This document shows, piece after piece, positions 2,478 through 35,351 of a DNA stretch of 64,000 bases. The notes beneath the pieces are model-generated. The model saw only the letters and a program-made list of their open reading frames with translations. It was not told the origin of the DNA and searched no databases. Source of the stretch: Neocallimastix lanati (nom. inval.) (Eukaryota; Neocallimastigomycota; Neocallimastigomycetes; Neocallimastigales; Neocallimastigaceae). Every line of letters begins with the position of its first letter. The first letter of the stretch is position 1. The DNA is taken from assembly GCA_016946835.1 (NCBI GenBank), contig JACVTC010000060.1, forward strand, positions 398,001-462,000. Direction: 5' to 3'. The position numbers and the translations under genes were made by a program.

Positions 2478-2719
2478 TGTAATCATTTAATTAAAAAATT
2501 ATAATTAAATTATTAATCATTAATATTAGCTCTAACTGCTAATATTAAAGGTTTAGAAAAGAATCATACTTACCTATGGTTCTTTCTAATTTTCGAGTTT
2601 ATTATAACGAATTATAATAAACGAAACACTAAAATTGATAAAGAAAAGTTTTAATTATAAAATTTTTTTTATTAAAATAATTTGTTTTATTAATTATTAG
2701 AAACTTTAAATGTTAAAAC

Positions 2720-2755
<36 letters not shown>

Positions 2756-3471
2756 TATAATTGTTATAATAATAACTCTTGATTTCTCAAAGAGAATTCA
2801 AGAGCCTTATTTATACTTTTTTGTCAAAATAAGGTTAAAATCAAAAAGGGGTTCTAATCTTAACAAATCTCTTATCTAGGAAAAGACTAGAAGAAAAACC
2901 TAGTTAAGTTTTTTGATCGATATTCTATCCATATCGATCATCGCGTTAATTAAGTAAAACCGATTACTTTTAAGAAATAATTTGAAAAACCTTAATTAAC
3001 CGATTACTTAATCTAATATAATGATCGAAAATAAAAGAATAAAATGAAAATTATTTCGATCATAAAATTTAAAATTTAATCTATTTAGTTCTATTTTATA
3101 GAACTTTACATAAAAAGTATAAAACAATATATTAATACTAAAAATACATGATTAATAAAATACAGAATACATGATAGAATACAGAATAGTGTTTTAGTTT
3201 ATGATTTAATAAGTAAGAGAAAACTAAAACTAATAAATTTAATAATTAAGTGAATAATAAAATAAATTTAATATTATTTTAAATGTATATAAATTATTTA
3301 ATTAAATAAAATTTTAATATTAAACTAAATAAATTTTTAATATGTAATTAAATAAATTATTAATTATAATTAAGTGTATAAATGAAATATGAGTTAAATA
3401 AAAGTTATATTAATTATAATTTAACTAAGAAAATATAATTATTTTGTTGAAAATAATTATATTTTTTTACA
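2478..3471 (-). mobile_element. solo LTR, Ty3/gypsy, Gypsy1 type
   Basis: A 994-bp solo LTR closely similar along its whole length to the 999- and 1017-bp LTRs of the Gypsy1 element (21426-28742). On the + strand it starts TGTAATCATTTAATT and ends TTTTTACA. The conserved core has the CTCTTGA/TCAAGAG hairpin at about 2776-2804, TATTTATA (the LTR TATA box, read on the minus strand), the TTATCTAGG/CCTAG hairpin and GATCGATAT/ATATCGATC. No internal region is attached, so it is probably a product of LTR-LTR recombination. I see no clear 5-bp target duplication. Confidence 0.85.
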
Positions 3472-4039
3472 TCGTATTATCTGTAACAGATGCATGGTAA
3501 CTTTAAACCTATCCAATGATAGTCCTCTGGTTACGTAACGTATCTCTAAACAGTTAGCAATTTCGGCTAATCAAATAAAATCTTTTATTATTTTCATACA
3601 TTAAATTATATTATTTTTATAATTAATTATATAGTTAAATACATAGTTAAATATATTTTATTTAGTAATTAGTAAACTAAGATAAATTAAATTATTTACC
3701 AATCATAAAATTATCGACATGAATAAATAATAATTGAACTTGTAACTGTAACGCACTAGCGTTACTATTAACGTAAATTGTTATTATAAATATTAATATT
3801 AATAATAAAATATAATTATTAAATAAATATAAATTACTCAGTGTAAGCCCAGTAACTAATAACAGATAGAGTTATAAAGTGCTGCGCTATATTCTTTTGT
3901 GATAAAATTGATAATTATAAATATAATTAATTTTAGTGTTTATTATTAGCAACTCGAATAGAGAGGTGTTAAGTTATCTTAGCCTTTAAATTTAATTACT
4001 ATTCGTTATTTTAGTTAATAATAAACTTACCTTTTACAT
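3472..4039. other. intergenic spacer between solo LTRs
   Basis: AT-rich DNA with two slightly less AT-rich patches (about 3480-3560 and 3730-3960) including a short palindrome around CGCACTAGCG. No gene or repeat recognised. Confidence 0.4.
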
Positions 4040-5068
4040 TGTAAGAAATCATAAGTAAGAAATCATAATTATTCAATAATGAATAATTAAAATTTCTTAT
4101 AATTAATGAAAAATCATTAATAATTTATAATTATTTATAAAATAATAATTATTTTTAAAAAATATTTATTTAAATAATAATTAATATATTCATTGATTTT
4201 AACTTATAAATTTATTTAATAGTTATATTTTCATATATTGATCTAAATTTATTTACATATTATAATTTATACATTTATATAAATAATATAAAATTTATTT
4301 ACATATTATTATTATTCATTTAAATAGAATTTTTACAAAAGATTATGTAAATTTGTATTTAATATTTTACCATAAAAATATTAGTTATTTTAATTAAAAT
4401 AAATTATGTATTTTATAATGTATTATAAACTATAAATGTATTTAATCTATCATATTATTTAATCTTTATTTTTTAAATGAAAAAAAAAAAAAAAAAAATC
4501 TTTTTTTATTAATTCCTATCCTATCAATATTTAATATTTTAATAATTAATTAGAAAATCGGTAATTAAGGTTTTTCCTAACAAATAGGTTTTCTTTAATT
4601 ATAACATGATCAATATGATTAGAATATTGATCGAAAAACTATTTAGGTTTTTCTTCTAATCTTTTCCTAAATAGATTTTTTGTTAAGATTAGAAAATAAA
4701 TTTATTTAACGGATTGATTTTAAAAAAAAAATATAAATAGGACTCTTGAGTTCTCTTTGAGAAATCAAGAGTTATTATTTTAAGAAAATATAATAAATAA
4801 TAAGAAATAAAATAAATTTTTTATTTATATATCAAAAAAATATTATTAATTATAAAAGCTTTTTTTTAAATATTTCCAACTACTAATCTACTGGTACTGA
4901 GTTATTGTTTATTATATTTACTTTTAATAAACTCTACATAATTAAGTATAATTTTAATTTTTTAATTTTTAATTTTTATTTTTCTCAATTTTAATATTAT
5001 GTAAAAATAATATTAAAATTGTAGATAATAGTTATATTAATTGATTTTAGTTTAGTATAGCTATTACA
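4040..5068 (+). mobile_element. solo LTR, Ty3/gypsy family, diverged, inverted
   Basis: A diverged LTR of the same family as Gypsy1/Gypsy2, in the opposite orientation. It starts TGTAAGAAATC and ends GCTATTACA, giving TG...CA ends and 1029 bp. The core at about 4550-4780 keeps hairpins CTATTTAGG/CCTAAATAG (4639-4647 with 4666-4674), GATCAATAT/ATATTGATC (4608-4632) and CTCTTGA/TCAAGAG, with sequence changed on both arms relative to the young LTRs. Flanks TACAT and TTCAT may be a decayed 5-bp target duplication. Old copy. Confidence 0.72.
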
Positions 5069-5075
5069 TTCATTG

Positions 5076-5935
5076 TGTAAGAAATATAGAAATATTTTCT
5101 ATATTTCTTAGTCTAAATATAAATTTTATTAATTACAAATTAATCTAAATATAAATTTTATTAATTAAAAAATTAAAATACGTAAGTATAATAATATTAA
5201 ATATTAAAAAATAATAATAGAATTTTCACAAATACAATTATGTTTAAAATTTAAAATTCTTCTAAATAATTTCCACAATAATATTAAATAATAAATAAAT
5301 TAAAATTAATATTTAATATTCTAAAATTATTTTCACAATAATATTAAATAATAATTAAATTAAATTAAATAATAAATTTCTTTGAAATAATTCGTTCTAA
5401 TTTAATACAATTAAGAAAATCTTCAGGTTTTTCTGCTAGTCTTTTCCTGAAGATACAACAGCTGACTAGCAAACAATAGCTTAATTAAGAAATAATTAAT
5501 ATATTATATTAAATAATTATTAATTAAATAAACACATGAAAAATAAATAATAATAATTAATTAATTAAACAGACACATGATAAAAAAAAAATAATAATAA
5601 TAAATAAATATAAAATAAGATTAATTAATAAATAAAAAAGTATAAAATAACGATTGATTTCTGTTTTTTCAGAAATCAAGAGTTATTATTATTAAAAATA
5701 TTAATAAAGATAAATATTAAAAATAATAATAACCTAAAATTTAAAGTTTAAAATTTTTTTTTTAATAAAATTTTGTGTTTTAAAAACTTATTTTTATATA
5801 CGAGTCTTCTACTTTTTCTAATTTTCGTCTATTTAAATATAAGTATTTTTCTTTATTTTTTTTTAATAATAAACTCAATCAATATAAAAAATAAACTCTT
5901 ATAAAAAAAATTTCTTTTTATTAGAGTTTCTTACA
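5076..5935 (+). mobile_element. solo LTR, Ty3/gypsy family, highly diverged, inverted
   Basis: An 860-bp LTR starting TGTAAGAAATATAG and ending GTTTCTTACA. It begins 7 bp after the previous LTR ends. Primary sequence is poorly conserved, but the hairpins remain: ATCTTCAGG/CCTGAAGAT (5419-5427 with 5446-5454) around the conserved loop, and TTGATTTCTG/CAGAAATCAA near 5653-5680. Flanks CATTG and TATTG look like a decayed 5-bp target duplication. Its right end lies 15 bp upstream of tRNA-Cys, the spacing typical of Ty3-type integration at RNA polymerase III start sites. Confidence 0.65.
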
Positions 5936-5950
5936 TATTGTCAGGTAAAA

Positions 5951-6022: not shown

Positions 6023-6034
6023 TACGCTTTGCAA

Positions 6035-6105: not shown

Positions 6106-6132
6106 TATTCCTTTTTAAATAAATCTTTTTTA

Positions 6133-6799: not shown

Positions 6800-6937
6800 G
6801 TTTACATAATATCTATATTAATTTCAATTATTCAAATTAATTAAATAATTAAATTTATCTTTATATTTTTATTAATATTTAAATTACTATATTATTAATA
6901 TCTATTATTAATAATATAATTAAATACTAATCTGTAA

Positions 6938-9743: not shown

Positions 9744-9790
<47 letters not shown>

Positions 9791-9836
9791 TGGTTATATT
9801 TATTATTATTATTATTATTATTATTGTTGTTGTTGT

Positions 9837-10094
9837 TGTTATGTATATATTTAATTTTATTTATTTATTAAAATATTTAATATAAACAAGTCTGAGATTA
9901 AAATAAAAAATAATCAAGTGAAATATATACACTAAATTTAATCAAATGATTTCGTGATTAACATAAAAATAAGAAATAAGTTATTTACATAAAAGAATGA
10001 TATTAACATAAATAATGTTAATCATACATAAAATAATAATTATATAAAAAATAAAATATAAATTAATATATTAAAATTTATTAATATTGTAACA
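9837..10094 (-). repeat. copia 3' LTR
   Basis: A 258-bp terminal repeat starting TGTTATGTATAT and ending TTGTAACA on the + strand, followed by CTCCCCCTC, the complement of the polypurine tract. It matches 15252-15508 nearly base for base. Confidence 0.9.
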
Positions 10095-13000
10095 CTCCCC
10101 CTCAAATGTAATTTTAATTATTAAAAATTATATTTGCGAAGGATTTTATTTTGTTTCCATTAGTGACTTTTGTTAAAATATCTGCTAAGTTTTCAGAGCT
10201 TTTAATGTGTTTTAATTCAACTATTTTCTTCTTAATGTTGTCTACCTTAAAGTGATATTTAATTGATATATGTTTTAATTTAGTATTTAAATCAACATTT
10301 TCCATAGAAATTTTACATGCATTATTATCAATAAAAATAGTTATTGGTTTATTAAATCCTATTAATTCAAAAAGAATATTCTTGATCCATAATAATTTAT
10401 TGATGCATTATGAAGCACTAATATATTCTGCTTCAGCGGTTGAGGTAGCAACTATAGACTGTTTTTTAGACATCCAAGAAATTGGGTTATTTCCTAAAAG
10501 AATAATATGTCCAGAAGTCGATTTTCTGTCTTTAATGTCTCCAGCAAAATCCGAATCAGTATAAGCAACTATGTCTCCTTGACCATCATAAGTTATCTTG
10601 TAATATATAGTGCTGTTTAAATATTTCAAGATGTTTTCTACTTTTCTCCAATCGGTTATTGTAGGATTTTCCGAATTTCTGGCTGCTTTGTGTACCGCAA
10701 AAGAAATGTCCGGTCTGCTTGCTTTGGATAAGAATATTAGCATACCAATAGCGCTTTTATATGTTGTTTTATCATATGGATCATTATTCTCAGAAATAAT
10801 ATTATCTCCAACGCATGGAGTTGTAACTTTTCTCATATTATTAATATTGAATTTATTTAAAATGATGTTAATAAAATGTTTTTGAAAAATTGAATAATTG
10901 AAATTGTTTTTTTCAATTATAATTCCTAATATATAATTAATTGGTTCGCATTTTGAAATTTTGAATTTTTGTTTAATTTTATTTATAATGTTACTGATTT
11001 CTTTAATTAATCCAGCGATAACCATATCATCAACATATAGTGCAATTATACAGACTAATTTTCCATTAACGTTCTTTTTAAATATGCATTTTTCAGACGA
11101 CAATTGAATAAAACCTTGTTCTATTAAAAATTCAGATGTTGTCAGATACCATTGGCGTCCTGACTGTTTTAATCTGTAAAGTGCCTTTCTAAGTTTCCAG
11201 TATCCCTTCCCAAAGTTAGCATCTCCATGAGGAATAGTTGTATAAATTTCTGTCTCAATTTTAGCATTAAGGTAGGCATCTTTAATATCAAGTTGGAAAA
11301 TATGCCATTTGAATTTTGAAGCAATGGCAATAATCAATTTTAGACCATCGATATTTAGAGTAGGGGCAAAGGTCTGAAAAAAGTCCACACCAAATAATTG
11401 TCGGAATCCTTGTGCAACAATACGAACTTTGTGTTTAATAACAATACCAGCCCTATTAATTTTATTTGTGTATATCCAAATTAAAGTTAAAATTCTTTTG
11501 CCTTTTGGGACATGTTTAACAAATATCATTATATTATTATCATAAAAGTTGCACAATTCATCATCCATGGCTTGTTCCCATAATAAATGGTCTTTGCAAT
11601 TGATTGCTTGAATATAATTGTTTGGGACCATGTTTTGAATTGAAGCAATAATTTTGTTGTTAAAATCTGTTCTACGATATTTTTTAAATTTTATAAAAAA
11701 TACTGGATTTTCTTTTCTTTTTAAAATATTTAAATTTATATTATGATTGATAAAATTATTATTTTTATTATTTGATGAGGTTCCTTCATCATAATTATTT
11801 TTAATTAAATTATTTTTATTTAAAATTTTTAAATTATTGCTTTTTGATAAATTTGGTAAATTCATTCTATAGGTCCAATAATTAAATTTATGTGATTGAT
11901 TGGGAACATTGTTATTTTCAATAATTAATTTTTAATATTACTGCTAAAAGTGGACTTTTTGTTTACATTTGAAGTAATAATTTCTTTTAACGTTTTACTT
12001 TTATTATTTTTATTACTGTGTATATTATTATTATTGTTTTATAATATATTATTATTTCTTAATGATATAGAATTTGTATTATTAATTGTATCAGTTAATT
12101 GAGTATTATTATTTTGATAATATATGTTAGAATATTCATCAATATTATTTCCTTTATTATAATTTAATATATTCGACTTAATATTATCTTCGAATTTATT
12201 ATTATTTAAGGTTTCATTAAATTTTTCATTTAAATTTTTAATATTTTCATTATTAATTAAAGTTTGATTTTTATTGGCAATTAAATTTTTGTCATTTTCA
12301 TTATATAATAAAGTTTTGTTTATATTTTCTTCAGAATTTGAAAAAGTTTTATTATTTGAAAAATTTTTATTATTTGAAAAATTTTTATTTTGAATAATTT
12401 CATCATTTTTTAAATTTTGAAAATTTTCAGTTGTATTTATATTTTGTGATTTCTCTATATTTTGACTATCAAATTTAGTCGTTTTTTCAATATTTTGTTT
12501 ATTTGCGAAAGAACTATTAGGTGGTGTCTTATTTTGATTGTTTTGATTGGAATCTGGTGAGGAAATAGATGACGGATAATCACAACCATCGTCAGGAATG
12601 TCATAGAAAATTTCCTCATTTGAATTATTTTGATTATTATTTTTATTATTATTTATGGTTAAATTATTAGGATTATAACTAATAAGATTGGTAAAATTAA
12701 AATAGAATTGGAAGATATTTGGATCTCCATATTGGTTTTTATTATCATTAGATAATTTTAGGTTGGCTGGAGTATCTTCCAAGCAGTGAATTTCTCTAAC
12801 TTTATGTATTTTGTAATTTTCATAATCCATTATAATATAACAATTCGATTGTTCACTAAATCCCAAAAATATTACTTTACGAGAATTTGGTGAAAATTTA
12901 GATTTATTTTGATCAAAAATTTTGTAATAACTAATGCATCCAAATACACGTAAATATTTAATATTTGATTTGTTATTGAAAAATATTTCATTAGGGATTT

Positions 13001-14470: not shown

Positions 14471-14501
<31 letters not shown>

Positions 14502-15508: not shown

Positions 15509-16231
15509 ATTATTATTATTATATTGGTTATAATAATAATTCTTGACTTCTCAAAGAGAACTCAAGAGCCTTATTTATACTTTTTTTCAAAATTAAGGTT
15601 AAATACAAAATGTATTTTCTAATCTTAATAAATCTCTTATCTAGGAAAAGATTAGATAGAAAAACCTAGATAAGATTTTTGATCGATATTCTATCCATAT
15701 CGATCAATACATTAATTAAGTAAAACCGATTACTTCCACGAAGTAATTAATAATTGGAAAAAACTTTAATTAGCCGAATGGTTAATCTAATCTAATGATT
15801 GAAAATAAAAGAATAAAAGAATAAAAGAATATTTAAGATATTTCAATCATAAAAATATTGATTTACATATAAAAAAAATAATATATTAATAATATTAAAT
15901 TATGTACTAAATAAAATACAGAATACATCATATAATATAGAATAATGTTTTAGTTCCATAATTTAATGAAAATAAATAACTAAAACTAATAAATTTAATA
16001 TTTAAAAGAATGATTAAATAAATTATTATTATTATTATTTAAATGTATAAAAACTATTTATCTAGATAATTTTTTAATAATAAATTTAATAGATATTTAA
16101 TATTATATTAAATAAATCATTAATTATAATTAAATGTACGAATGTAATATAATTTAGATAAAAGTTATATTAATTATAACTTAGCTAAGAAAATGTAATT
16201 ATTTTGTTAAAAATATTTATAAAATCTTACA

Positions 16232-16914: not shown

Positions 16915-17712
16915 TGTAATAATTTCTATAAATTATAGAAATTATTATTTATAATTAATATTAACTAAACTATTAATATTAAATAAAAATTAAAATAAAA
17001 ATTAAAATAAAAATAAGAATTTAATACTTATCTTTAAAATAGAGTTTATTATAAGAAAATATAATAGACCTTGAATATGAAAAGAGAAAATAAAATATGT
17101 TTTTTTTAAAAGAACTTTATTAATCTATTTGATTATTAAATATTTTATTATTTTTTTTTTTTGATAAATTTTAAAATAACTATTTTATATTAATTGAAAT
17201 ATTAATGTCTTTAATTGTTATTATATTTTTCTTAAAATAATAACTCTTGATTTTCTAAAGAAGAAAATCATTAGCTATTTATATTTTTACAAAAGTAAAT
17301 GGATTTTTCTAATCTTAACAATGATTCTTTCCAGAAAAAGATTAGAAGAAAAAACTGGAAAGATTTTTGATCAATAATCTATACTTATTGATCATCGTGT
17401 TATTAAATAAAACCAATTATAATTAATCGAAAAAACTTTAATAACCGATTTTAATAACTAAAAGAATTAAAAAGAAAAAAGGATAAAAAAAGAGAAGGAT
17501 AAAATAATGCAGAAATTTTATTTAATACATTTTTTCTATGAAATAATACAGAAGTTATATTAAATACATTTTTTCATATAACAATTAATACATTAATTGA
17601 TATAATTGTTTTTAAATGAAATAAATTTTTTAAAGAATAATAATTATGAAATGATTATTAATTAATAAGAAATAGAAATAAATTATAAAAATTTATATCA
17701 ATTTCTTATACA
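16915..17712 (-). mobile_element. diverged solo LTR, left member of an inverted pair
   Basis: An LTR of the Gypsy family in Gypsy1 orientation. It starts TGTAATAATTTC and ends near TTCTTATACA. Hairpins are kept with altered stems: CTTTCCAG/CTGGAAAG (17327-17334 with 17355-17362) and GATCAATAA/TTATTGATC around 17370-17395, plus TGATTTTCT/AGAAAATCA near 17255-17278. The opposing LTR starts 2 bp further on. Old. Confidence 0.68.
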
Positions 17713-17714
17713 TA

Positions 17715-18592
17715 TGTAAGAAATAATAATTATTTACTAATAAATAATTACTATTTCTTAGTCTTTATAATTATTGATAATAATTATAAATTTATTTAAA
17801 TTATAACAAAATTTTATTTAATTAATTATTAATTATTCATTTATAAATAATTATAATTTATTATATATTTAATTATTAAATTTATTAGTTTTAGCTTATT
17901 TATCTAATTAAATTGTAAACAAACACATTATGTATTTTATTATGTATTTAATAATGTATTCTGTATTTTATTTAATATTTTATTTTCCTTTTTTGTAAAT
18001 TTATTATTTTAAGATCGAAATATTTTTTAATTATTTTATTCTTTTATTTTCGATCATTAGATTAGATTAACCATTCGGCTAATTAAGGTTTTTTCCAATT
18101 ATTAATTACTTCGTGGAAGTAATCGGTTTTACTTAATTAATGTATTGATCGATATGGATAGAATATCGATCAAAAATCTTATCTAGGTTTTTCTGTCTAA
18201 TCTTTTCCTAGATAAGAAATTTGTTAAGATTAGAAAAACCTTTTTTATTTAACCTTATTTTAACAAAAAAAATATAAATAAGGCTCTTGAGTTCTCTTTA
18301 AGAAATCAAGAGTTATTATTATAAAAATATAGTTATAATAGTAACAATTTTATATTTTAAACTTTAACAAATTAATAAAATATTTTATTCAAAAAACATA
18401 CTTTAAAAAATTAAATTTATACAAATCTTTCTTCCTTCTTATTTTTCGTGTTATTATTATAATTAATTTTATAGTAAACTCTACCAATATTTAGGTAAAA
18501 CTTTTTTTTATTTTCTCATCTTAATGAATTAATCGTTAAGTTGAAGTTAATAATCATATTAAGTGATAGCATTTAGTATGATTATTATAACA
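17715..18592 (+). mobile_element. LTR, right member of an inverted pair
   Basis: A reverse-orientation LTR starting TGTAAGAAAT and ending ATTATAACA. The core at about 18040-18315 closely resembles Gypsy2-type LTRs (GATCGATAT/ATATCGATC, TTATCTAGG/CCTAGATAA, CTCTTGA/TCAAGAG). Together with the previous LTR it makes a large imperfect palindrome. Confidence 0.72.
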
Positions 18593-19201: not shown

Positions 19202-21420
19202 TGTAATAATTCTATTAAGAACTAACTCAAAATAGAATTATTAACTACAACTTAACGACTAATTCATTAAGTTGAGAAAATAAAATAAAATAAATTTTTT
19301 TTTTTTTTACCTTTAGAGTTTATTATAAAATTAATTATAATAATAACACAAAAAGTAAGAGAAGAATTGTTTATATAAATTGATTTTAAAAATATGTTTT
19401 TGAATAAAATATTTTTATTAATTTATTAAAGTTAAAAATATAAAATTGTTACTATTATAACTATGTTTTTTATAATAATAACTCTTGATTTCTCAAAGAG
19501 AACTCAAGAGCCTTATTTATATTTTTTTATGAAAATAAGGTTAAATAAGAAAGGGTTTTCTAATCTTAACAAATCTCTTATCTAGGAAAAGATTAGATAG
19601 AAAAACCTAGATAAGTTTTCGATCGACATTCTATCCATATCGATCAATACATTAATTAAGTAAAACCGATTACTTCTAAAAAGTAATTGGAAAAAATCTT
19701 AATTAACCGATTTTCCAATCTAATGATCGAAAATAAAAGAATAAAATAATAAAAGATATTTCGATCATATAATTTATCCTTAAATAGTTAATAAAATACA
19801 GAATACATTATAAAATACAGAATACATTATAAAATACAGAATACATTACAAAATACAATACAAAATACATTAGTTACAGTAGAGAATTTAACATATTGTA
19901 AATATATTATTTAAAATTAATTAAATAAATTTTGTTAAATTAATGAATATTTAAAATTAAATTAAATAAATTTAATAAATATTATATGTAATTAAATAAA
20001 GTTATAGTTATAATAACTTAACTATGTTAAGATTATATTTGGTTTTGATATAACTTGGTTGGAATGCTATAAACTAATAACTTCCTTATGATAATTAAAT
20101 TTTATTTTATCAGTATTATTATAGAATTTTATTATATTTTATTTTATTATTTTATTTGATTTTATTTAATAATATTTTTTAATGAATGAAGTTATCAGAT
20201 TATTAAAATATTAATAATCTTACGAAGATTATTTAAAACATTTAATTCACTATTCTTTTATACATAAAAATAAACAATTAAAAAGTTATATAATAATAAA
20301 TAAAATAATAAACAATAGTTTAAAAAGTTAGATAATAATAAATAAAAAATAAACAATTAATTATACTTTAAAAAGTATAAATTATATTCAACAATTTTAT
20401 TATTATTATTATTATTTAATAATAATAAATAATATATATTTATATTGTAAAAGGATTTTGAGGCGTATGATCATACTAAATAATGATTAATTTGTTATGG
20501 TAATGAGGCTTATATAGCTCATCGAGTTATATCCTTTATAAACTAAGAAAATATAATTATTTGTTAGCAAATAATTATATTTTCTTAGTTAAGTTATTAT
20601 AACTATAACTTTATTTAATTACATATAATATTTATTAAATTTATTTAATTTAATTTTAAATATTCATTAATTTAACAAAATTTATTTAATTAATTTTAAA
20701 TAATATATTTACAATATGCTAAATTCTCTACTGTAACTAATGTATTTTGTATTGTATTTTATTCTGTATTTTATAATGTATTCTGTATTTTATAATGTAT
20801 TCAGTATTTTATTAACTATTTAATTTTATATTTTTAATATAAGGATAAATTATATGATCGAAATATCTTTTATTATTTTATTCTTTTATTTTCGATCATT
20901 AGATTGGAAAATCGGTTAATTAAGATTTTTTCCAATTACTTTTAGAAGTAATCGGTTTTACTTAATTAATGCGATGATCGATATGGATAGAATATCGATC
21001 GAAAACTTATCTAGGTTTTTCTATCTAATCTTTTCCTAGATAAGAGATTTGTTAAGATTAGAAAACCCTTTCTTATTTAACTTTATTTTCATAAAAAAAT
21101 ATAAATAAGGCTCTTGAGTTCTCTTTGAGAAATCAAGAGTTATTATTATAAAAAACATAGTTATAATAGTAACATTTTTATATTTTTAACTTTAATAAAT
21201 TAATAAAAATATTTTATTCAAAAACATATTTTTAAAATCAATTTATACAAACAATTCTTTTCTTACTTTTTGTGTTATTATTATAATTAATTTTATAATA
21301 AACTCTACTCTAAAGGTAAAAAAAAAATTTATTTTATTTTATTTTCTCAAATTAATGAATTAGTCGTTAAGTTGTAGTTAATAATTCTATTTTGAGTTAG
21401 TTCTTAATAGAATTATTACA
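19202..21420. mobile_element. palindromic LTR pair with 5-bp target duplication
   Basis: An LTR in Gypsy1/2 orientation (19202 to about 20024), ~500 bp of AT-rich loop, then an inverted Gypsy2-type LTR (about 20541-21420). The unit is bounded by ATCAA on both sides (19197-19201 and 21421-21425), so it appears to have integrated, or been fixed, as one piece. The two LTRs are very similar in their core, implying youth. The loop has no coding sequence; a small palindrome lies at about 20541-20590. Confidence 0.7.
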
Positions 21421-21425
21421 ATCAA

Positions 21426-22424
21426 TGTAATAATTTAATTAAAAAATTATAATTAAATTATTAATCATTAATATTAGCTCTAACTGCTAATATTAAAGGT
21501 TTAGAAAAGAATCATACTTACTTATGGTTCTTTCTAATTATCGAGTTTATTATAACGAATTATAATAGACGAAACACTAAAATTGATAAGGAAAAGTTTT
21601 AATTATAAAATTTGTTTTATTAAAATAATTTGTTTTATTATTTATTAAAAATTTTAAATGTTAAAATTTATTGTCATTATTATTATATTATAATTGTTAT
21701 AATAATAACTCTTGATTTCTCAAAGAGAACTCAAGAGCCTTATTTATACTTTTTTGTCAAAATAAGGTTAAAATCAAAAGGGGTTCTAATCTTAACAAAT
21801 CTCTTATCTAGGAAAAGACTAGAAGAAAAACCTAGATAAGTTTTTTGATCGATATTCTATCCATATTGATCATCGCGTTAATTAAGTAAAACCGATTACT
21901 TTTAAGAAGTAATTGGAAAAACCTTAATTAACCGATTACTTAATCTAATATAATGATCGAAAATAAAAGAATAAAATAATGAAAATTATTTCGATCATAA
22001 AATTTAAAATTTAATCTATTTAGTTCTATTTTATAGAACTTTACATAAAAAATATAAAACAATACATTAATAATAAAATACATGATTAATACAATACAGA
22101 ATACATGATAGAATACAGAATACATGATAAAATACAGAATAGTGTTTTAGTTTATGATTTAATAAGTGAGAGAAAACTAAAACTAATAAATTTAATAATT
22201 AAGTGAATAATTAAATAAATTTAATATTATTTTAAATGTATAAAAATTATTTAATTAAATAAATTTTTAATATTAAACTAAATAAAATTTTAATATATAA
22301 TTAAATAAATTATTAATTATAATTAATTGTATAAATGAAATATGAGTTAAATAAAAGTTATATTAATTATAACCAAACTAAGAAAATATAATTATTTTGT
22401 TAAAAATAATTATAGATTCTTACA
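21426..22424 (-). repeat. Gypsy1 3' LTR
   Basis: A 999-bp terminal repeat from TGTAATAATTTAATT to GATTCTTACA, almost identical to 27726-28742. It begins 5 bp after the inverted LTR that ends at 21420. It contains the hairpin core and a variable number of short tandem units around TACAGAATACATGATA. Confidence 0.92.
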
Positions 22425-25400
22425 TTGCTCCCTTTATGGTGACGGTTCCTTTAATCCTATGTCTCTTTCAGTATAAGGCTCCAACTGCGAGATATGAAAT
22501 ACCGGGTGTAAATGAAGATTTTCTGGTAATTCAAGCCGGTAGTTCATTCTTTCCCTCACTTCTATGACCTTAAAGGGTCCAAGATACTGGTTAGAAAGCT
22601 TTTTTGCAGGTTCATTGGAGAAGTAATACCTTTTCAACCAAACCATGTCGTTAACATGGAAAGTAGGACCAGAAGCTTTCCTAGAGTCACCAAACTTTTT
22701 GAAATCTTCTTTAGCTTTGATAAGGTGCTTTTTAAGGGCATCAAAATGGGCAGACCAATCCCTAGTAAGTACAGAGGCATTATCTTTTAAAAGAACAGGA
22801 GGAGAGTCAATATTGCATACTGGATTAAAACCATAATTTGCACAGAAAGGCGACATGTTTATAGATTTGTGAAATGAGTTGTTATAAGCCATTTCACAAA
22901 GAGGTAGATAAAAGCACCATTCATTTTGGGCAGTAGAACAGTAGCATCGTAAATATTGTTCGATTACGGAATTAGCCCTTTCGACTTGACCATTTGTTTG
23001 TTGATGATGAGCAGTAGCGAGTCTTGGCTTAGTATTTAGAGCTGAGCAGAGTGAGGTCCAAAATTCAGAAGAGAACTGGGAGCCATGATCAGAGACAATG
23101 ATTTTAGGGAATCCATGATACCGAAAAACGTTGTAAAGGAGCATCTTGGCGGTCAGGTCAGCGGAAGGGACGTCGGAGCAAGGAACTAAATGGGTCATCT
23201 TTGTTAAGTGATCCGAAACCACCATAATACATGTGCAATCTTGTGAACTAGGTAACGAAACTATAAAATCAACCCCAATAATTTCCCATGGTTTATTGGG
23301 AACAGCAACGGTTGAATTTTTCCGTAGGGTTTATGTCTACGAATTTTACACCTAGCACAAGTTGAACAAGAAAGTACATAATTATGAATATCTTTCTTCA
23401 TATTAGGCCACCAGTAGTATCTCTTGATTTTATCAAGAGTTTTGTCAATACCTTGGTGTCCGTTGGTGGGTGAATCATGAAAAGATTTCAAAATTCTTGC
23501 TCTTAAAGTGGATGGGACGATGATTCTGTTTTGGAAATGTAAGACTCCTTCATTTAAAGAAAATAAAGAACTTTTAACTGTGTTTGACTTAGTTTTAATC
23601 TTTTCTAAAATAGATTTGCAATATGTGTCAGTCGTTTGGGCATCAATCAAACTACTAATATTATCAGTGTTTGCACAACATAAGGCATTATCATCCAATA
23701 AAGGACGGTCTTTGTTGTGGACGGAAACCACGGAATTATAATCCGGACGTCTCGACGACGAATCTGGTTTACCACACCTTGATCCAGGTCTGAACGAAAT
23801 CCTAAAGTCAAACTTAAAAAGAAAGAGGCTCCATCTTATCTGGCGTTGGTTTAAATGTTGAGGCTTTTTAAAATATAATAAATTCCTGTGATCGGTAATG
23901 ATTTGAACAGGAAACTTAGCCCCTTCAAGGTGGTGACGCCAGGTTTCAAAAGCGGTGATAATAACGAGTAGTTCCTTGTCATATATTGTATAATTTAATT
24001 CAGAAGATGACAAAGACCTAGAATGAAAAGCGACAGGGTGAAGTTCGTTATCCTTGTCACTGATTTGAGAAAGAATGCAACCCACAGCAAAATCACTGGC
24101 ATCAGTTTCAACAGTGAATTCCTTATCTGGATCGGGGTAGATAAGGATTTCGTCTGTGGTAAAAGCAAGTTTTAATTTTTTGAAGGCATTCTCAGCATCA
24201 TCATTCCATTTGAACTCGTTATTCTTCTTGAGGAGTATTCTTAAGGGTTCCATAATTATGGCGAAATTCTTTATTAATTTCCTATAGTAGTTACAGAGTC
24301 CGAGGAAACTTTGAAGTTCATTCATGTTTTTTGGAGTAGGCCATTCAAGAATTGATTTTACTTTGTTTTTATCCATAGAAAGGCCATTTATTGATACAAC
24401 AAACCCTAAAAAAGTAGTTTCAGGAACGTGAAATTCACATTTTTCTAGTTTTACATAGAGACCATTTTTGACTAACAAGGAAAGGACATGATGAACATGT
24501 TTAATATGTTCAGTAAGGTTTTTCGAATATATTATAATGTCATCTAAGTAGACAAAGAGAAACAAGCCAATATCATCAGAAAAAATGTCTTGGATAAAGC
24601 GTTGAAAAACCGAAGGTGCATTACGTAAACCAAAAGGCATTACACGGTATTCAAAATGACCAAAAGGAGTACGAAAAGCAGTAAGGTATTCATGGCCTTT
24701 CTTGACACGAACTAAGTTATAGGCAGATCTTAAGTCAAGCCGAGAGAAAATAATAGCACCTTTAAATGATTCTATCAAATCAGATATCCTAGGAATTGGA
24801 TAACTGTTTCTAATGGTGATAGAATTGAGCTTTCTATAGTCAACACAAAGTCTAAGAGAACCGTCACGTTTTCTAACAAATAGCACCGGGGCACCAGCAG
24901 GAGATTTTGATTTTCTAATGAATCCTTTAGCAAGGTTTTCCTTAATGTATTCACGAAGTGCCTTCTTTTCTTCAACAGTCAACGAATAAATTGGTCCAAA
25001 ATAAAGTTGAGCACCGGGAACTAAATCAATGGATATATCATAAACACGGTGTGGAGGGAGTTTATCAGCTTCTTTCTTTTCAAATACAATACAAAGGTCA
25101 TAATAATATTTTTTAATTATTTTTTTTATTTCTTTTGGTATTCTTAATTTCACTATTGTGAACTAAAGCAGCGCAAATGTTCATATCGCTAAGTTCGTCT
25201 TCAGGTATGGAATCTGGAATTATTGAGTCAAGAGGAATTTCTTCCTTCTGTTCATTATTGGGTAAGAGAGAAGCAGTAATATCTGATGAATGGAAAACAA
25301 ACCTATTACCCTTAGTAGAAGGGCAATGGTTTTTACAGTAGCTTTCCAAGAAGTAAATTTTATTATTTTTGTAATCAATGTAAGGTGAATGAAGGCTTAA

Positions 25401-26519
25401 CCAATCTCTTCCAAGGATTGCAGATACGTCTTGAAGTTGTAAATTGGCTATAAAGAATTCAAATGTTTCCGTATGGTCCATGAAAGTAAGCTTAAGACGT
25501 TTTGTAACTTGTTTTATAGCCATATTCTTTTCATTAGGAAGTTTTACATTGATCGTATTTGAGAGGTTTGAATAAGGAATTTTGTTTGCTGTTACGAAGC
25601 TTTTGCAGAGATAACTTCTAGCAGAGCCCGAGTCAATAAGGATTCTGGTTTTAATCTTTTTGTTATTAACGGTTAACAAGAAAGTTGTAGTCATTTTATT
25701 ATTATGACTTGGGGTGTAATTTGCTGATAAAATACTTCCATTGTCTCGTCCCTTATGGTGCTTATTGCGTTTAAATTTATTTTCGGTCATGTTAGTTTCG
25801 TTTCTTTTTCGTTTGAAAGATTTACTACTCTTTGGCTTGTAGTCATTGGTCTTTACTTTTTGCTTAAGTAAACATTTTCTATCAATATTGATAATAGAAT
25901 TTGTTGCCTCAAATAAACTTTTAGGTTTGTCTAATTTATTGAACTCTGTTTTAACATCCTCAAGAAGACCTCTTTTGATTAGGTCAATGAATACATCGTC
26001 CGGCCATCCAATACGTCCAGCTAACCTTCGAAATTCAATAGTATATAATGCGGCTCTTCCTAAATGAAGTTGTTTTAAGTTTAGAAGTTGTTCAATAAGA
26101 ACATCCTTCTGTTCTTTAGTATCCCCAAAATTGCTTATCAAAATATCTTTAAAGGTGTCATAGCTTAACGAATTTAAAGTTCCATCAGCCTTCAATGAAA
26201 GTCCCCATTTCTTTGGAGGTCCATGTAACATGCTGATAACATAAGAAATTTTTAAGTCGTCCGTGGAAAAAGAGTTGGGATGTTTTTTAAAAAACAATTC
26301 ACTCTGTTCCAGGAGCTCATTAACGTTAAGTTTGTTGTTATCAGCTAAGTCCTTGGATAACACTCCGTTGGCGGAAAAGAAGGTAGGAATAAATTCTGTT
26401 AAAGCTGTTATAAGCTTTGAGGATTCAACTTCACTTGGAATTTGGGCGTTATTACTATTGGATTCCATTTTTACCTAAATTATAAATTATATTAACTATG
26501 AAATATATATATATGTTTA

Positions 26520-27345: not shown

Positions 27346-27725
27346 ATATCTATTCTTTTAATTTTTTATGATTTTAATTATTTATCCAACTAATTATTAC
27401 TATTTACTTATTTTTTAATATTTAATTTATGGTTTATATTAATTTATTCTTATAATTTCTATACTAAATTATTAATTAATGATTTTTGATCTGATTTACT
27501 AATATTATCTACTTATATTTAAATATTTAATTTATTTACTATATATTAATTTATTTTTTTAATTTCTAGATTATTCTATATAATTTATATTATTTTATTT
27601 ATTATTAATCATAAAAATTTTTATTGTACTACACTAAATTATTTTGTACTACTTGATTCTAGAAATTAATTATATTATTAAATTAATTAACTATTCTATT
27701 AAACTATACTAAGAAGAGTTATTAT

Positions 27726-28742
27726 TGTAATAATTTAATTAAAAAATTATAATTAAATTATTAATCATTAATATTAGCTCTAACTGCTAATATTAAAGGT
27801 TTAGAAAAGAATCATACTTACTTATGGTTCTTTCTAATTATCGAGTTTATTATAACGAATTATAATAGACGAAACACTAAAATTGATAAGGAAAAGTTTT
27901 AATTATAAAATTTGTTTTATTAAAATAATTTGTTTTATTATTTATTAAAAATTTTAAATGTTAAAACTTATTGTCATTATTATTATATTATAATTGTTAT
28001 AATAATAACTCTTGATTTCTCAAAGAGAACTCAAGAGCCTTATTTATACTTTTTTGTCAAAATAAGGTTAAAATCAAAAGGGGTTCTAATCTTAACAAAT
28101 CTCTTATCTAGGAAAAGACTAGAAGAAAAACCTAGATAAGTTTTTTGATCGATATTCTATCCATATTGATCATCGCGTTAATTAAGTAAAACCGATTACT
28201 TTTAAGAAGTAATTGGAAAAACCTTAATTAACCGATTACTTAATCTAATATAATGATCGAAAATAAAAGAATAAAATAATGAAAATTATTTCGATCATAA
28301 ATTTAAAATTTAATCTATTTAGTTCTATTTTATAGAACTTTACATAAAAAATATAAAACAATACATTAATAATAAAATACATGATTAATACAATACAGAA
28401 TACATGATAGAATACAGAATACATGATAGAATACAGAATACATGATAAAATACAGAATAGTGTTTTAGTTTATGATTTAATAAGTGAGAGAAAACTAAAA
28501 CTAATAAATTTAATAATTAAGTGAATAATTAAATAAATTTAATATTATTTTAAATGTATAAAAATTATTTAATTAAATAAATTTTTAATATTAAACTAAA
28601 TAAAATTTTAATATATAATTAAATAAATTATTAATTATAATTAATTGTATAAATGAAATATGAGTTAAATAAAAGTTATATTAATTATAACCTAACTAAG
28701 AAAATATAATTATTTTGTTAAAAATAATTATAGATTCTTACA
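27726..28742 (-). repeat. Gypsy1 5' LTR with TATA box
   Basis: A 1017-bp terminal repeat. On the minus strand a TATA box (AGTATAAATA, 28041-28050) precedes the CTCTTGA/TCAAGAG hairpin, placing the likely transcription start in or just after that hairpin. Further hairpins lie upstream in U3: CTTATCTAGG/CCTAGATAAG (28103-28112 with 28131-28140) and GATCGATAT/ATATTGATC (28147-28171). Confidence 0.88.
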
Positions 28743-28747
28743 ATAAA

Positions 28748-29595
28748 TGTAATAATTCTATTAAGAACTAACTCAAAATAGAATTATTAACTACAACTTA
28801 ACGACTAATTCATTAAGTTGAGAAAATAAAATAAAATAAATTTTTTTTTTTTTTTTTTTTTTTTTTGTTTTTGTTTTTGAATAAAATATTTTTATTAATT
28901 TATTAAAGTTAAAAATATAAAAATGTTACTATTATAACTATGTTTTTTATAATAATAACTCTTGATTTCTCAAAGAGAACTCAAGAGCCTTATTTATATT
29001 TTTTTATGAAAATAAGGTTAAATAAGAAAGGGTTTTCTAATCTTAACAAATCTCTTATCTAGGAAAAGATTAGATAGAAAAACCTAGATAAGTTTCCGAT
29101 CGATATTCTATCCATATCGATCATCGCATTAATTAAGTAAAACCGATTACTTCTAAAAAGTAATTGGAAAAAATCTTAATTAACCGATTTTCCAATCTAA
29201 TGATCGAAAATAAAAGAATAAAATAATAAAAGATATTTCGATCATATAATTTATCCTTATATTAAAAATATAAAATTAAATAGTTAATAAAATACAGAAT
29301 ACATTATAGAATACAGAATACATTATAGAATACAGAATACATTATAAAATACAGAATACATTATAAAATACAGAATAGAATACAATACAAAATACATTAG
29401 TTACAGTAGAGAATTTAGCATATTGTAAATATATTATTTAAAATTAATTAAATAAATTTTGTTAAATTAATGAATATTTAAAATTAAATTAAATAAATTT
29501 AATAAATATTATATGTAATTAAATAAAGTTATAGTTATAATAACTTAACTAAGAAAATATAATTATTTGCTAACAAATAATTATAGATTCTTACA
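28748..29595 (-). repeat. Gypsy2 3' LTR
   Basis: An 848-bp terminal repeat from TGTAATAATTCTATT to GATTCTTACA. It starts 5 bp after the Gypsy1 LTR ends. It has the canonical hairpin core and a short tandem array of ACAGAATACATTATA units whose copy number differs between LTRs of this family. Confidence 0.9.
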
Positions 29596-32500
29596 TTGCT
29601 CTGTTTAATTATGATGTTTCCATTAAGTCTTCATTTCTTTTAGTATATGGTTCCAATTGTGAGATATGAAATACCGGATGGAGATGTAAGTTCTCTGGAA
29701 GTTCCAAACGGTAATTCATTCTTTCCCTTTTCTCGATGATTTTAAAAGGTCCAAGATATTGAGTGGATAATTTTCTAGAGGGTTCATTCGTAAAGTAGTA
29801 TCTTCTAAGCATAACCAAATCATTTACCTTAAAGTCAGATCCTACAGATTTTTTATTGTCAGCATATTTCTTAAAATCTTCTTTGGCTTTAACTAAATGT
29901 TGACGAAGAGCATTGAAATGTGAAGACCAATGCCTTGTAAGAACAGAAGCACTATCTTTTAGCAGAATCGGTGGTGAATCAATAACACAATTTGGGTCAA
30001 ATCCATAGTTAGCATGAAAAGGAGTTTGAGCTATTGATTTGTGAATGGAGTTGTTGTAGGACATTTCCCATAAAGGGAGGTAGAAACACCATTCATTTTG
30101 AGCAGAAGAACAATAGCAGCGAAGATATTGTTCTATTACAGCATTAGCCCGTTCAACCTGACCATTGGATTGTTGGTGGTGAGCAGTAGCAAGTCTTGGT
30201 TTAGCACGAATAGCATCGCACAACGAAGTCCAAAATTGAGAAGAGAATTGGGAACCATGATCAGACACAATCACTTTAGGAAAACCATGATACTTAAAGA
30301 CTTGGAAAAGTAAGAGCTTAGCAGTTAAGTCGGCAGAGGGAACATCGGAGCAGGGTACTAAATGAATCATTTTGGTTAAATGATCAGAAACAACCATGAT
30401 ACAAGTGCAATCTTGTGAAGAAGGCAATGAAACAATAAAATCGACGCCAATAACTTCCCAGGGTTTTGTAGGAGTAGGAAGTGGTATTAGTTTACCATAA
30501 GGTTTATGACGACGGATTTTATTTCTACAACAAACATCACAAGAAGCCACATAATTTGAAATATCTTTTTTCATATTAGGCCACCAGTAGTTCCTTCTGA
30601 GTTTTTCAAAGGTCCTATCTACCCCCTGATGGCCACTAGTGGGTCCATCATGGAAAGACTTTAAAAGTCTAGCCCTGAGACTGGAAGGAATAATAATACG
30701 CTTTTGAAAGTGAAGTACGCCATCGACGAAGGAAAATAAAGAACTTTTGATGTTGTTTGACTTATCCCTTATTTTTAAGAGGATATTTTTACAATAATTA
30801 TCAGCTTTCTGTGCTTCAATAAGACTACTAATATTGTCATTTATAGCACAACAGAAAGCATTATTGTTAATTATAGGTTGTGATTCAGATGAAGAGTCAG
30901 ATTTAAAATCTGGGCGTCTTGAAAGAGCATCTGGTTTGCCACTTTTAGCGCCTGATCTGAATGCAATCCTATAGTCAAACTTTGATAAAAAGAGACTCCA
31001 ACGAATTTGTCTTTGATTTAAATGTTGGGGTTTCTTAAAATACAATAAGTTCTTGTGGTCTGTTATTACTTGAACAGGAAATTTTGCGCCTTCTAAATGA
31101 TGCCTCCAAGTTTCAAACGCAGTAATTATAGCAAGAAGTTCTTTATCATATATAGTATAATTGACTTCTGCTTTATTGAGGGATCTAGAATGGAAGGCTA
31201 CGGGATGCAATAAGTTATCAGTGTCACTAACCTGAGAAAGTATGCAACCGACAGCAAAGTCGCTAGCATCTGTTTCAACGATGAATTCTTTCTCTGGATT
31301 AGGAAAAATGAGCACTTCATCAGCTTTAAAAGATTCTTTCAATTTATTAAAAGCTTCATTTGCTGATTCATCCCAATTAAATGTAGTATTTTTCCTTAAA
31401 AGTCGACGAAGAGGTTCCATATTTTTGGCAAAATTATTGATAAACTTTCTATAGAAATTACATAAGCCTAGAAAACTTTGTAATTCCTTTTGATTCTTCG
31501 GAATAGGCCAATCCAGAACAGATTTTACCTTATCCTTATCCATAGTGAGACCATCTACAGAAACAGTGAAGCCTAAGAAAGTGGTTTTAGTAACATGGAA
31601 GTCACATTTCTCTAATTTAGCATATAATCCATTGTTGATGAGAAGTTGAAGAACGATCCTAACATGTTTAATATGTTCTTTTTCGTTGTTAAAGTAAATA
31701 ATGATGTCGTCCAGATAGACCTGCACGAAAGAACCAATGATATCACTGAAGATATCTTGTACAAAACGTTGAAAAACCGAGGGGGCATTTCGAAGTCCAA
31801 AAGGCATAACGAGATATTCGAAATGTCCTAAAGGGGTTCTAAAAGCAGTAAGATATTCGTGACCTTCTTTAACTCTGATTAGGTTATAAGCAGATCTAAG
31901 GTCAAGACGAGTAAATATCTTAGCTCCTTGAAAGGATTCAATCAAGTCATTTATTCTTGGAATTGGGTAGCTATTACGGATTGTGATAGCATTTAACCGG
32001 CGATAATCTACACAGAGTCTAAGGGTACCATCGCGTTTCATTATAAATAATATAGGAGCACCTGCTGGTGATTTTGACTTCCTAATGAATTTCTTTTTTA
32101 AGTTTTCCTTAATATAATCCTTTAAAACTTTCAGTTCTTGTACAGTAAGAGAGTATATTGGACCAAAATAAAGTTCTCCACCAGGAATAAGCTCAATAGC
32201 AATATCATAGTCACGATGGGGTGGTAAGTTCTCAGCTTGTTTCTTTTCAAATACTATTTTAAGATCCGAATAGTATTTATTAATAATCTCTTCTTTTCCC
32301 TGAACGTCAGTGTTTACTTCTTCTGAATCAATCATTGCAGCACATAAATCAGAATCTGAGATATCTGTATCAAAAGCCGAATTTGGTAATACTGAATCTT
32401 CTTCTGAATTCTCCAACATTGAAGCAGTAATATTTTTATTTTGATTAAAAAACTTATTACTTTTGGAGGATGGGCAATGTGAGCCACAGTATCTACCAAG

Positions 32501-33764
32501 GAAGTAGATTCTATTATTTTTATAATCGATGAAAGGATTGTGAACGGATAACCAATCCCTTCCAAGAATACCATTAATGCCCTGAAGAGATAGATTAGCA
32601 ATGCAGAATTCAAAAGTTTCCTTATGATCCATAAATTTTAATTTAAGGGGCTTAGTAGTTTGCCTGATATTCATACTTTTCCCATTAGGAAGTTGGATGT
32701 TGATTTGGGAATTGAGTCCTAACACAGGTAATTTATTAGAATTTGCGAAGTTTTTACAAATAAAACTTCTGGCAGAACCCGAATCAATTAATAGATTTGC
32801 CTTAATATTTCTTCCATTAATATCAAGGTAGAAGGTAGTTGTGATTGTTGTTTTAATATTCGGGGTGTAATTTGCTGAAAGTATGTCGTTTTTAGACTTA
32901 TTTTTTCTGAAATGAGAATGTTTAGAATTCTTTTCTGATTTTAATAAATCGTTTCTTTTCCTATGAAACGACATTTTTCCATTAAATTTATTTTTTTGAT
33001 TGTGGCGTAGACGACTTTCCAAAAAACACTACTTATCAATTCCAATAATAATGTTGGTAGCTTCAAAAAGAGTAGATGGCTTTTCGAGTTTATCAAACTC
33101 TTCGCGGACTTTGTCAAGTAGACCCTTACCGATTATATCGATTAAAACTTCGTCGGGCCATCCTAAACGTCCAGCCAATCTCCGAAATTCAATAGTATAT
33201 TCAGCAACATTTCCTAATTGAAGTTGTTTCAATTTCCACAACTTTTCCATGATGACATATTTTTGCTTCCTTTCATTCCCAATATCAAAGTTATCCAGTA
33301 AGAGCTTCTTAAACTTACTAAATTCAAGGTTCTTTAGAGTACCATCAGTTAAAAGAGAAAGACCCCATTTTCTAGCGGTACCAGTAAGTTTATTAATAAC
33401 AAAAGAACTTTTTAGTTCATCCTTTTGAAAAGAATTTGGATGCTCCTTAAAGAAATCTTCACTTTGAATTAAAATTTCTAAGATATTTAGTTTATTGCTT
33501 TCATTTTCCTTTTGGAGGACACCATTAGGAGAAAAGAAAGCAGGAATGAAGTCAGCAATTGCAGTAATAAGTTTGGATGCATTTTCATCATGGAGATAGG
33601 AATTATTAACTTCACTTGAGGAAATTGCTTGTTTATTACTATTGAAATCCATTTTTATGCCTTTAGTATAGATAAAAATAGGATAGAGTTAACAAAATGG
33701 ACATTTTTATTACACAAAATTAAGAATTATAATAAGGATTTTGATTAATAAATATTTTATAGAA

Positions 33765-34400
33765 TACACTTTAATTTCTTCCTTCCCGTGTTACCGTTCA
33801 TTTGGTTTATCAACCAAAGGGCTGAGGTGTAGGTCTAATGTTACAGCCTACCAGTAACGGTCAACAACGTACTTGGAAATTAAATTAAAATGATTAACAA
33901 AATATTATTATAAACTTATCCTTTATTATAAACTTCTGCATAAATACAATATTTAGTATTATTTTAATTAAAATTCAATATCACTTTCTTATGCCTTACA
34001 ACATTCAAAAACCGGCAAAAGTGATCCATTAAAACATAAAAAAAAATATTTTATGTTTTCCATAGCAGTTTTATATAATCAAGCATAAAAAAAAACATAA
34101 CTGCTATAACCAATTTTGTTTGGGATAAACAAACTGTTAAAACCCATTATTAAAATTAAAACTATATAATTTTACTTCAATACATAGTATTGAAGAACCT
34201 CGAGGCCTTCAGTCACCAAGAGTTCCTTATTCGCTAGAGCTACATTCGGATAACCTATACTTTCACGTGAAATACTGCATTTCCGTACAGTACAAACCGC
34301 TACGGTATAGGAAAAGGAGACCTTTCCTTTATTACTACCTAAAAATGTACTCACCATCCCCAATTAGATGGCTAACTCTATATATGAAGGTATTATTACC
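33765..34400 (-). other. Gypsy2 leader with structured patches
   Basis: Two GC-richer patches (about 33780-33875 and 34185-34400) inside the untranslated leader. The first holds inverted CCGTTA/TAACGG segments; the second ends in a GAAGGTA/TACCTTC hairpin near 34386-34403. Function unknown. Confidence 0.5.
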
Positions 34401-34474
34401 TTCTCAGTTTGTTATTTTTTATTTATTTTTTAAAATTTTTATTTATTTCTTTATTTATTTATTATCATTATAGT

Positions 34475-34516
<42 letters not shown>

Positions 34517-34577
34517 ATTTTCAATTATTATTTCTATTCTTAATTATATTATCTAAAATTATTATTATTATTCTATA

Positions 34578-35351
34578 CTTTAGAGTAGAGTTTATTATAA
34601 AATTAATTATAATAATAACACAAAAAGTAAGAGAAGAATTGTTTGTATAAATTGATTTTAAAAATATGTTTTTGAATAAAATATTTTTATTAATTTATTA
34701 AAGTTAAAAATATAAAAATGTTACTATTATAACTATGTTTTTTATAATAATAACTCTTGATTTCTCAAAGAGAACTCAAGAGCCTTATTTATATTTTTTT
34801 ATGAAAATAAGGTTAAATAAGAAAGGGTTTTCTAATCATAACAAATCTCTTATCTAGGAAAAGATTAGATAGAAAAACCTAGATAAGTTTTCGATCGATA
34901 TTCTATCCATATCGATCATCGCATTAATTAAGTAAAACCGATTACTTCTAAAAAGTAATTGGAAAAAATCTTAATTAACCGATTTTCCAATCTAATGATC
35001 GAAAATAAAAGAATAAAATAATAAAAGATATTTCGATCATATAATTTATCCTTATATTAAAAATATAAAATTAAATAGTTAATAAAATACAGAATACATT
35101 ATAAAATACAGAATACATTATAAAATACAGAATAAAATACAATACAAAATACATTAGTTACAGTGGAGAATTTAGCATATTGTAAATATATTATTTAAAA
35201 TTAATTAAATAAATTTTGTTAAATTATTGAATATTTAAAATTAAATTAAATAATTTAATAAATATTATATGTAATTAAATAAAGTTATAGTTATAATAAC
35301 TTAACTAAGAAAATATAATTATTTGCTAACAAATAATTATAGATTCTTACA
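34578..35351 (-). repeat. Gypsy2 5' LTR
   Basis: A terminal repeat matching 28748-29595 over its core. On the minus strand the TATA box lies at about 34786-34793, next to the CTCTTGA/TCAAGAG hairpin. It is followed by target duplication ATAAA (35352-35356). The expected first ~100 bp at the inner edge are not recognisable; a T-tract occupies that position. Confidence 0.85.

Follow-up and report, generated by a model that had tools for sequence, protein, structure and literature searches.

Tf1/sushi-like elements, which belong to the Ty3/gypsy long terminal repeat (LTR) retrotransposons, are self-primed; Tf1 is not known to have a pseudoknot in the unique 3' region (U3) of its LTR, and conserved RNA folds inside the U3 of LTR retrotransposons have, to our knowledge, been little described. 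Telomerase RNA contains an H-type pseudoknot in which a U-rich loop 1 lies next to a second stem with A-U pairs at the junction, where a triple helix is found. The human telomerase RNA contains the sequence UUUUUCUC (PMC12137546). Two structures of LTR retrotransposon RNA are also relevant here, a pseudoknot at the 5' end of the Ty1 genomic RNA (passages of PMC9503155) and the element for nuclear expression (ENE) of Arabidopsis Evade, placed in the spacer before the 3' LTR (passages of PMC12501189). Here, we describe a structure in the LTRs of Ty3/gypsy retrotransposons of the anaerobic fungus Neocallimastix lanati, studied in a stretch of 64,000 nucleotides (the window; contig JACVTC010000060.1 of assembly GCA_016946835.1, positions 398,001 to 462,000, forward strand) and in the 199 Mb host assembly.

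An earlier note on the window, made from its letters alone, had reported stem-loops in these LTRs with a nearly constant loop and with stems in which both arms change together. The four stems that it quoted are present at the positions it gave. The loop motif (AAAAGAYTAGAAGAAAAA) is present and enriched as well, with 18 matches at up to three mismatches in the window versus 3.5 expected, and 911 exact genomic occurrences (447 + 464) versus 1 for a reversed-pattern control. For the elements with known genes, however, the loop had been read in antisense. Between the LTRs 21423-22425 and 27724-28742 the gypsy genes run on the minus strand, with the TATA box 3' of the hairpin on the same strand, and in this sense orientation the loop is U-rich and reads TTTTTCTTCTARTCTTTT. 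Its middle is complementary to a stretch about 9-10 nt beyond the stem (TTCTAATCTT / AAGATTAGAA), and in the copy 5419-5471 both of these strands are altered (TGCTAGTC / GACTAGCA). As read from the sequence, the hairpin of the LTR makes up half of an H-type RNA pseudoknot, in which stem S1 is the stem of the earlier note and stem S2 is formed by the loop and the downstream strand. The layout comprises, in sense direction from 5' to 3', an S1 strand of 9-10 nt, the connecting strand L1 (UUUUUC), an S2 strand of 8-10 nt, 2-4 U, the S1 partner, the loop L3 and the S2 partner, that is, the two interleaved stems and compact loops of the H-type. L3 measures mostly 9-10 nt (10 in 54 of the 60 records counted after nine S1 pairs; range 8-12). 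The duplex energies of S1 and S2 sum to about -17 to -23 kcal/mol in the family pieces computed, a sum that contains no pseudoknot penalty, versus about -8 to -13 kcal/mol for the nested optimum; the diverged copy L129 reaches only -11.8 kcal/mol. The conserved loop had been taken to favour an RNA or single-stranded ligand; a single-stranded ligand site is not supported, as the loop middle pairs with the downstream strand, with which it co-varies in some families; the constancy of the loop is largely explained because it consists of a pseudoknot stem and a U-rich connecting strand. Twelve LTR copies in the window carry the structure, as identified from the list of LTR copies and, where indicated, by the sequence-blind scan described below:

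28084..28139, minus strand: pseudoknot of the near-identical-copy family, 5' LTR (S1 28131-28139 with 28104-28112; loop 28113-28130; 3' strand of S2 28084-28093) (blind scan)
21784..21839, minus strand: pseudoknot in the 3' LTR of the element whose 5' LTR holds 28084..28139 (blind scan)
2852..2907, minus strand: a further LTR copy, whose pseudoknot has one broken S1 pair
4639..4694, plus strand: pseudoknot of the family with S1 CTATTTAGG/CCTAAATAG (blind scan)
5419..5471, plus strand: pseudoknot of the family with S1 ATCTTCAGG/CCTGAAGAT and S2 TGCTAGTC/GACTAGCA (blind scan)
15617..15673, minus strand: pseudoknot (blind scan)
17307..17362, minus strand: pseudoknot of the family with S1 CTTTCCAG/CTGGAAAG (blind scan)
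18179..18235, plus strand: pseudoknot (blind scan)
19558..19614, minus strand: pseudoknot (blind scan)
21007..21063, plus strand: pseudoknot (blind scan)
29035..29091, minus strand: second gypsy element, pseudoknot of its 3' LTR (blind scan)
34830..34886, minus strand: second gypsy element, pseudoknot of its 5' LTR, with one broken S2 pair

Both this pseudoknot and that of Ty1 are of the H-type and belong to LTR retrotransposons, the Ty1 structure to the genomic RNA; that structure is long-range and lies at the RNA 5' end (PMC9503155), whereas the present one is compact and sits in U3, upstream of the TATA box. The telomerase pseudoknot resembles it in the U-rich loop 1, with UUUUUCUC in a similar place, but there is no telomerase context here, the short likeness may be convergent, and a triple helix is for the LTR structure only proposed. 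Capture of telomerase by the element was rejected, as nothing supports it beyond this short loop likeness. A search of one LTR (window 27700-28760) with Rfam covariance models gave a single sub-threshold match on the other strand and nothing relevant. Among the matches listed in literature searches on ENEs, on the LTRs of anaerobic fungi and on pseudoknots and triple helices of LTR retrotransposons, no title or abstract beginning described the structure.

For the analysis of covariation, 208 loci and the window gave 153 distinct pieces. Twenty-one pieces with fewer than six of nine S1 pairs were dropped (at least three of them, L008, L076, and L170, are real copies with a shifted register or an insertion), leaving 69 S1/S2 types. 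A stricter limit of at least seven S1 pairs kept 65 of the 69, of which 17 were seen in two or more distinct pieces; the four types below this limit are two real mutated copies (L075, L077) and two chance matches (L015, L205). In 15 hand-chosen copies, covering 12 of the 17 multi-piece types and three single copies, 95.1% of the S1/S2 cells are paired versus 84.9% in shuffles, 30 cells are two-sided versus 8.4, and the score is 0.341 versus 0.146 (each 0 of 500 shuffles), while slid controls are 33-55% paired. The five multi-piece types omitted from this set differ from those included mainly in S2, one of them holding a C.A, and one row of the alignment (f4) is off by one column, which works against the structure. 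Arm swaps among 24 representatives reached the observed value in 0 of 20,000 trials for S1 and in 2 of 20,000 for S2; with the 17 multi-piece types the figures are 0 of 100,000 for S1 (11 stems) and, for S2, 555 of 100,000 on ten pairs and 86 of 100,000 on nine. Across these 17 types five S1 positions show two-sided changes and none one-sided changes, the non-pairs being T.T at the loop end (three types) and T.T at the outer end (one type). Two-sided variants of S2 are TTCTAATCTT/AAGATTAGAA, CCAAATCTT/AAGATTTGG, TGCTAGTC/GACTAGCA, and TGCTAGTCT/AGACTAGTA, with TGTTGATCT/AGATCAGCA in a single diverged copy. Covariation is very strong for S1 and real but thinner for S2, because S2 hardly varies. 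That both arms change together is correct between families but not for single copies, which carry one-sided changes (the S1 of 2852-2907, the S2 of 34830-34886, and 30 of 414 S1 cells unpaired in 46 single types, pieces with fewer than 7/9 pairs excluded). As the fold is kept while its paired strands change together, the element probably requires the fold as such, and the stem covariation upholds the earlier suggestion of selection on a folded form. It is very probable that an RNA pseudoknot is under selection.

The structure also emerges when no sequence is specified. A blind scan for H-type pseudoknots, which fixes only stem and loop lengths, a minimum G+C content of the arms and a wobble cap, gave ten matches on the two strands of the window, all of them LTR pseudoknots, versus two altogether in 20 dinucleotide shuffles (0.1 per shuffle); two further LTR copies fall outside its limits by one mutation each. 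With wider loops, 225,759 bases of 72 loci (some overlapping) gave 135 matches, sorted by eye into 90 LTR pseudoknots, 43 at the same places on the opposite strand and 2 due to chance. The near-identical-copy family was matched on the sense strand only, because its G.U turns into A.C on the other strand. In places selected by the loop, where neither S1 nor the S2 partner was selected, S1 had at least 7/9 and S2 at least 8/10 pairs in 56 of 63 distinct places (drawn from 100 listed of the 911; 61 of the 63 with the ATTAG form); the seven others comprise four mutated copies or shifted registers, one insertion, one half-structure chimera and one unrelated place (L205). Among loci picked by the repeat (R) sequence described below, the pseudoknot was recognized by eye in 17 of 20, the remaining three having foreign sequence upstream; these 20, taken from 43 loci, are mostly absent from the listed loop matches and belong for the most part, as close copies, to a single family. 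Patterns requiring an altered loop were used to find several of the S2 variants, whose counts are a non-random sample. Three pattern searches retrieved genuine variants, at 20, 101, and 176 places versus 5, 5, and 0 in the controls; another matched 48 places, mostly unrelated, versus 66 in its control. A DNA query with R and the unique 5' region (R-U5) gave 44 listed matches, 40 of them at 99-100% identity. Pattern scans beyond this genome returned no match in viral contigs and three bacterial places in prokaryote genomes, taken as chance, the stems there not having been looked at.

The carriers are Ty3/gypsy retrotransposons by the order reverse transcriptase (RT)-RNase H-integrase and by their paired LTRs, and the integrase ends in an SH3_Tf2-1 domain. 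The RT-containing pol of three other families and of the second element in the window is 70-73% identical to that of the first window element (56% in one stretch), and the plan of the pseudoknot is retained across these diverged pol families. The parts of the elements concerned are:

22434..26474, minus strand: gag-pol frames of the first gypsy element (reading frames and domains)
29609..33028, minus strand: pol frame of the second gypsy element (reading frames and domains)
28043..28048, minus strand: TATA box (sequence)
28002..28013, minus strand: R sequence AAGAGTTATTAT, complement of the primer-binding site (PBS), from the R/PBS match
27714..27725, minus strand: PBS ATAATAACTCTT, immediately following the terminal TTACA of the 5' LTR, from the R/PBS match
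28009..28037, minus strand: hairpin H3 between TATA box and R (sequence and other copies)
5653..5680, plus strand: H3 of the ATCTTCAGG family, TTGATTTCTG/CAGAAATCAA (sequence)

The PBS that follows the TTACA end reads ATAATAACTCT(T), the complement of the R sequence. The match is 13 nt long in three families and 16 nt long in a fourth, and is present in all four families examined (L236, L237, L238, and 27714-27725/28002-28013), and in the fourth R, PBS, and H3 differ together. Measured from the TATA start, R lies 35-38 nt downstream in 19 of the 21 rows listed; the remaining two rows, of one family, have it at 50 nt, with a second TATA-like site nearer. The PBS-R match and the SH3_Tf2-1 domain fit a self-primed Tf1-like element, and the elements look self-primed in the manner of Tf1/sushi-like elements, with which they share a PBS matching the own R start and the SH3_Tf2-1 end of the integrase, the start site here being predicted. 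The TATA-adjacent hairpin of the earlier note, H3, is present but longer than claimed (10-14 bp, with one mismatch in many copies), and it overlaps the R sequence that matches the PBS, which may give it a separate reason. H3 should form only in RNA of the 3' LTR, its 5' arm then being U3-only, and could cover the start of the self-primer sequence and so hide the wrong (3') copy.

Three further observations may be added. The window holds a separate retrotransposon at 10408-15039, with frames that look copia-like by eye and 260-bp repeats (9834-10093 and 15249-15507, 97% identical); the blind scan had no match in it. At L217 (G000:C142:9786-10248) an LTR of the CCCAAATC family lies reversed inside an LTR of the ATCTTCAGG family and severs the pseudoknot of the latter. 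At L215 (G000:C24:316216-320216), the 4 kb flanking an LTR of the TTCATCAGG family had no match to the gypsy pol, and no internal part of this family was located.

In many families two further hairpins accompany the pseudoknot, in the order H0, H1, pseudoknot:

28147..28171, minus strand: H1, GATC...GATC hairpin, one A.C mismatch in this copy (sequence and other copies)
28177..28232, minus strand: H0, ENE-like hairpin whose U-rich internal loop separates a lower stem from an upper stem CC..GG (sequence; same hairpin in copies L001 and L010)

H1 had been reported as a second covarying hairpin, and it does covary (arm swap among the 24 representatives, 0 of 20,000), the mismatch falling in the copy beside 28103-28140. 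H0 resembles the Evade ENE, likewise a U-rich internal loop between two stems, close to the 3' end of the RNA of an LTR retrotransposon; the Evade ENE, however, is located in the spacer before the 3' LTR (PMC12501189) and H0 inside U3, and the pseudoknot itself does not have the ENE layout. Ten of the 24 representatives have an H0 that beats all 60 shuffles, and a score of at least 10 is reached in 41 of 52 types, some of them chance-like. In 27 distinct pieces the own arms score 13.3 versus 10.2 when swapped (0 of 50,000), the pieces having been chosen for an own score of at least 10, which favours the own arms. Judged by eye, energy folding alone reproduces H0 in roughly 10 of 26 pieces. Of the G-C flanks of the U-rich loop, the upper CC/GG is present in most cases, while the lower flank is G-C in some families and A-U in others. 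Stem, U-rich internal loop and stem beyond chance, as in an ENE, are found for H0 in part of the families.

Given its position in U3, ahead of the TATA box, the pseudoknot is expected in the genomic RNA at the 3' end alone, which agrees with the RNA from the 3' LTR that had been considered earlier. Its loop starts 54-214 nt upstream of the TATA box, depending on the family. We propose that it belongs to a U3-encoded module of the 3' untranslated region (3' UTR) that would protect or handle the 3' end of the genomic RNA, thereby stabilizing the transcript and marking its end. L1 may lie in the groove of S2 as a short U.A-U / C+.G-C triple helix of UUUUUC of L1 and AAGA of S2; a U-rich L1 faces A-U pairs of S2 in most types, L1 being partly selected by the search patterns. 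We lean slightly toward this statement as a whole, an RNA pseudoknot in U3 acting as a 3'-UTR module that stabilizes the transcript and marks its end. Protection of the 3' end as the job of the pseudoknot we infer more tentatively, at somewhat less than an even chance. The boldest form is rather doubtful: a new class of U3-encoded triple-helix pseudoknots, often with an ENE-like hairpin, that would shield self-primed fungal retrotransposon RNA at its 3' end and would have persisted across diverged gypsy families in which the LTR sequence is otherwise largely replaced.

Several points weigh against these proposals. All copies analysed come from this one genome, and most were collected by patterns that fix L1, so that conservation of L1 is partly selected. 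S2 varies little, and with 15 distinct S2 strands the arm swap gave 35 of 20,000, a thinner covariation than that of S1. The family of 5419-5471 is without the first two S2 pairs and the AAGA needed by the triple-helix idea, and H0 was looked for in this family and not found; among the 24 representatives H0 gave nothing in five, and several others were no better than shuffles. The loop starts, 54-214 nt before the TATA box, fall in a zone where DNA elements are also expected. G.U pairs are seen in two multi-piece families and in some loops selected for change, but one type found at three places (L171/L191/L204) has a C.A inside S2.

Among the alternatives, the same RNA pseudoknot with another job, as a signal in the 3' LTR for packaging, for the transfer of the first strand or for the choice of the poly(A) site, survives best and is possible, though improbable. 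A position upstream of R, expected in the 3' copy only, and the self-primed appearance of the elements are in its favour, as is the Ty1 5'-end pseudoknot, which is called functionally important (in a part of PMC9503155 and in a title cited there), whereas the distance from loop start to TATA box, varying by family over the range given above, and the ENE-like hairpin in many families, which points to tail protection, speak against it. A function in DNA, as palindromes bound by a protein dimer or, close to the TATA box, as the inverted half-sites of a transcription factor, is unlikely. The promoter-proximal position would suit it, and the loop and its S2 partner are inverted copies of one 10-mer, but the multi-piece types hold 11 S1 stems with pairing kept, unlike a binding site, L3 is held near 9-10 nt, and two interleaved stems are retained. 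That wobble lends RNA little support also suits a function in DNA. Without the misregistered row the 15-copy alignment has three G.U (one in a single copy) and no A.C; in the S2 of the 17 types, five cells hold G.U or U.G, and for at least two of these the loop had been selected for change, while C.A stands once inside the stem, in the type named above, and twice at its outer end. The near-identical-copy family keeps a G.U that breaks the symmetry of the DNA and was not found folded on the other strand. Wobble weakly favours the sense strand. Because the type with C.A inside S2 was found, our estimate for a DNA function was raised a little and that for another job of the RNA lowered a little; of the RNA and the dimer-bound DNA palindrome that the earlier note had offered, RNA is the more likely and DNA the less likely. 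Least probable, and quite improbable, is the absence of selection, with hairpin-templated copying or template switching during reverse transcription keeping the arms complementary: such events can alter both arms together, and L011 of the near-identical-copy family has a two-sided S1 change absent from its sampled relatives, but both interleaved stems are retained, single copies hold the uncorrected one-sided changes counted above, the commonest type, with 13 distinct pieces, retains a G.U, and loop lengths and the U-rich L1 are kept as well.

The many copies of several families in one genome amount to a natural covariation experiment, and the fold that we propose is directly testable. If it is true that the pseudoknot protects the RNA, it would represent a further structural route, beside the ENE, by which transposons resist RNA decay by the host.

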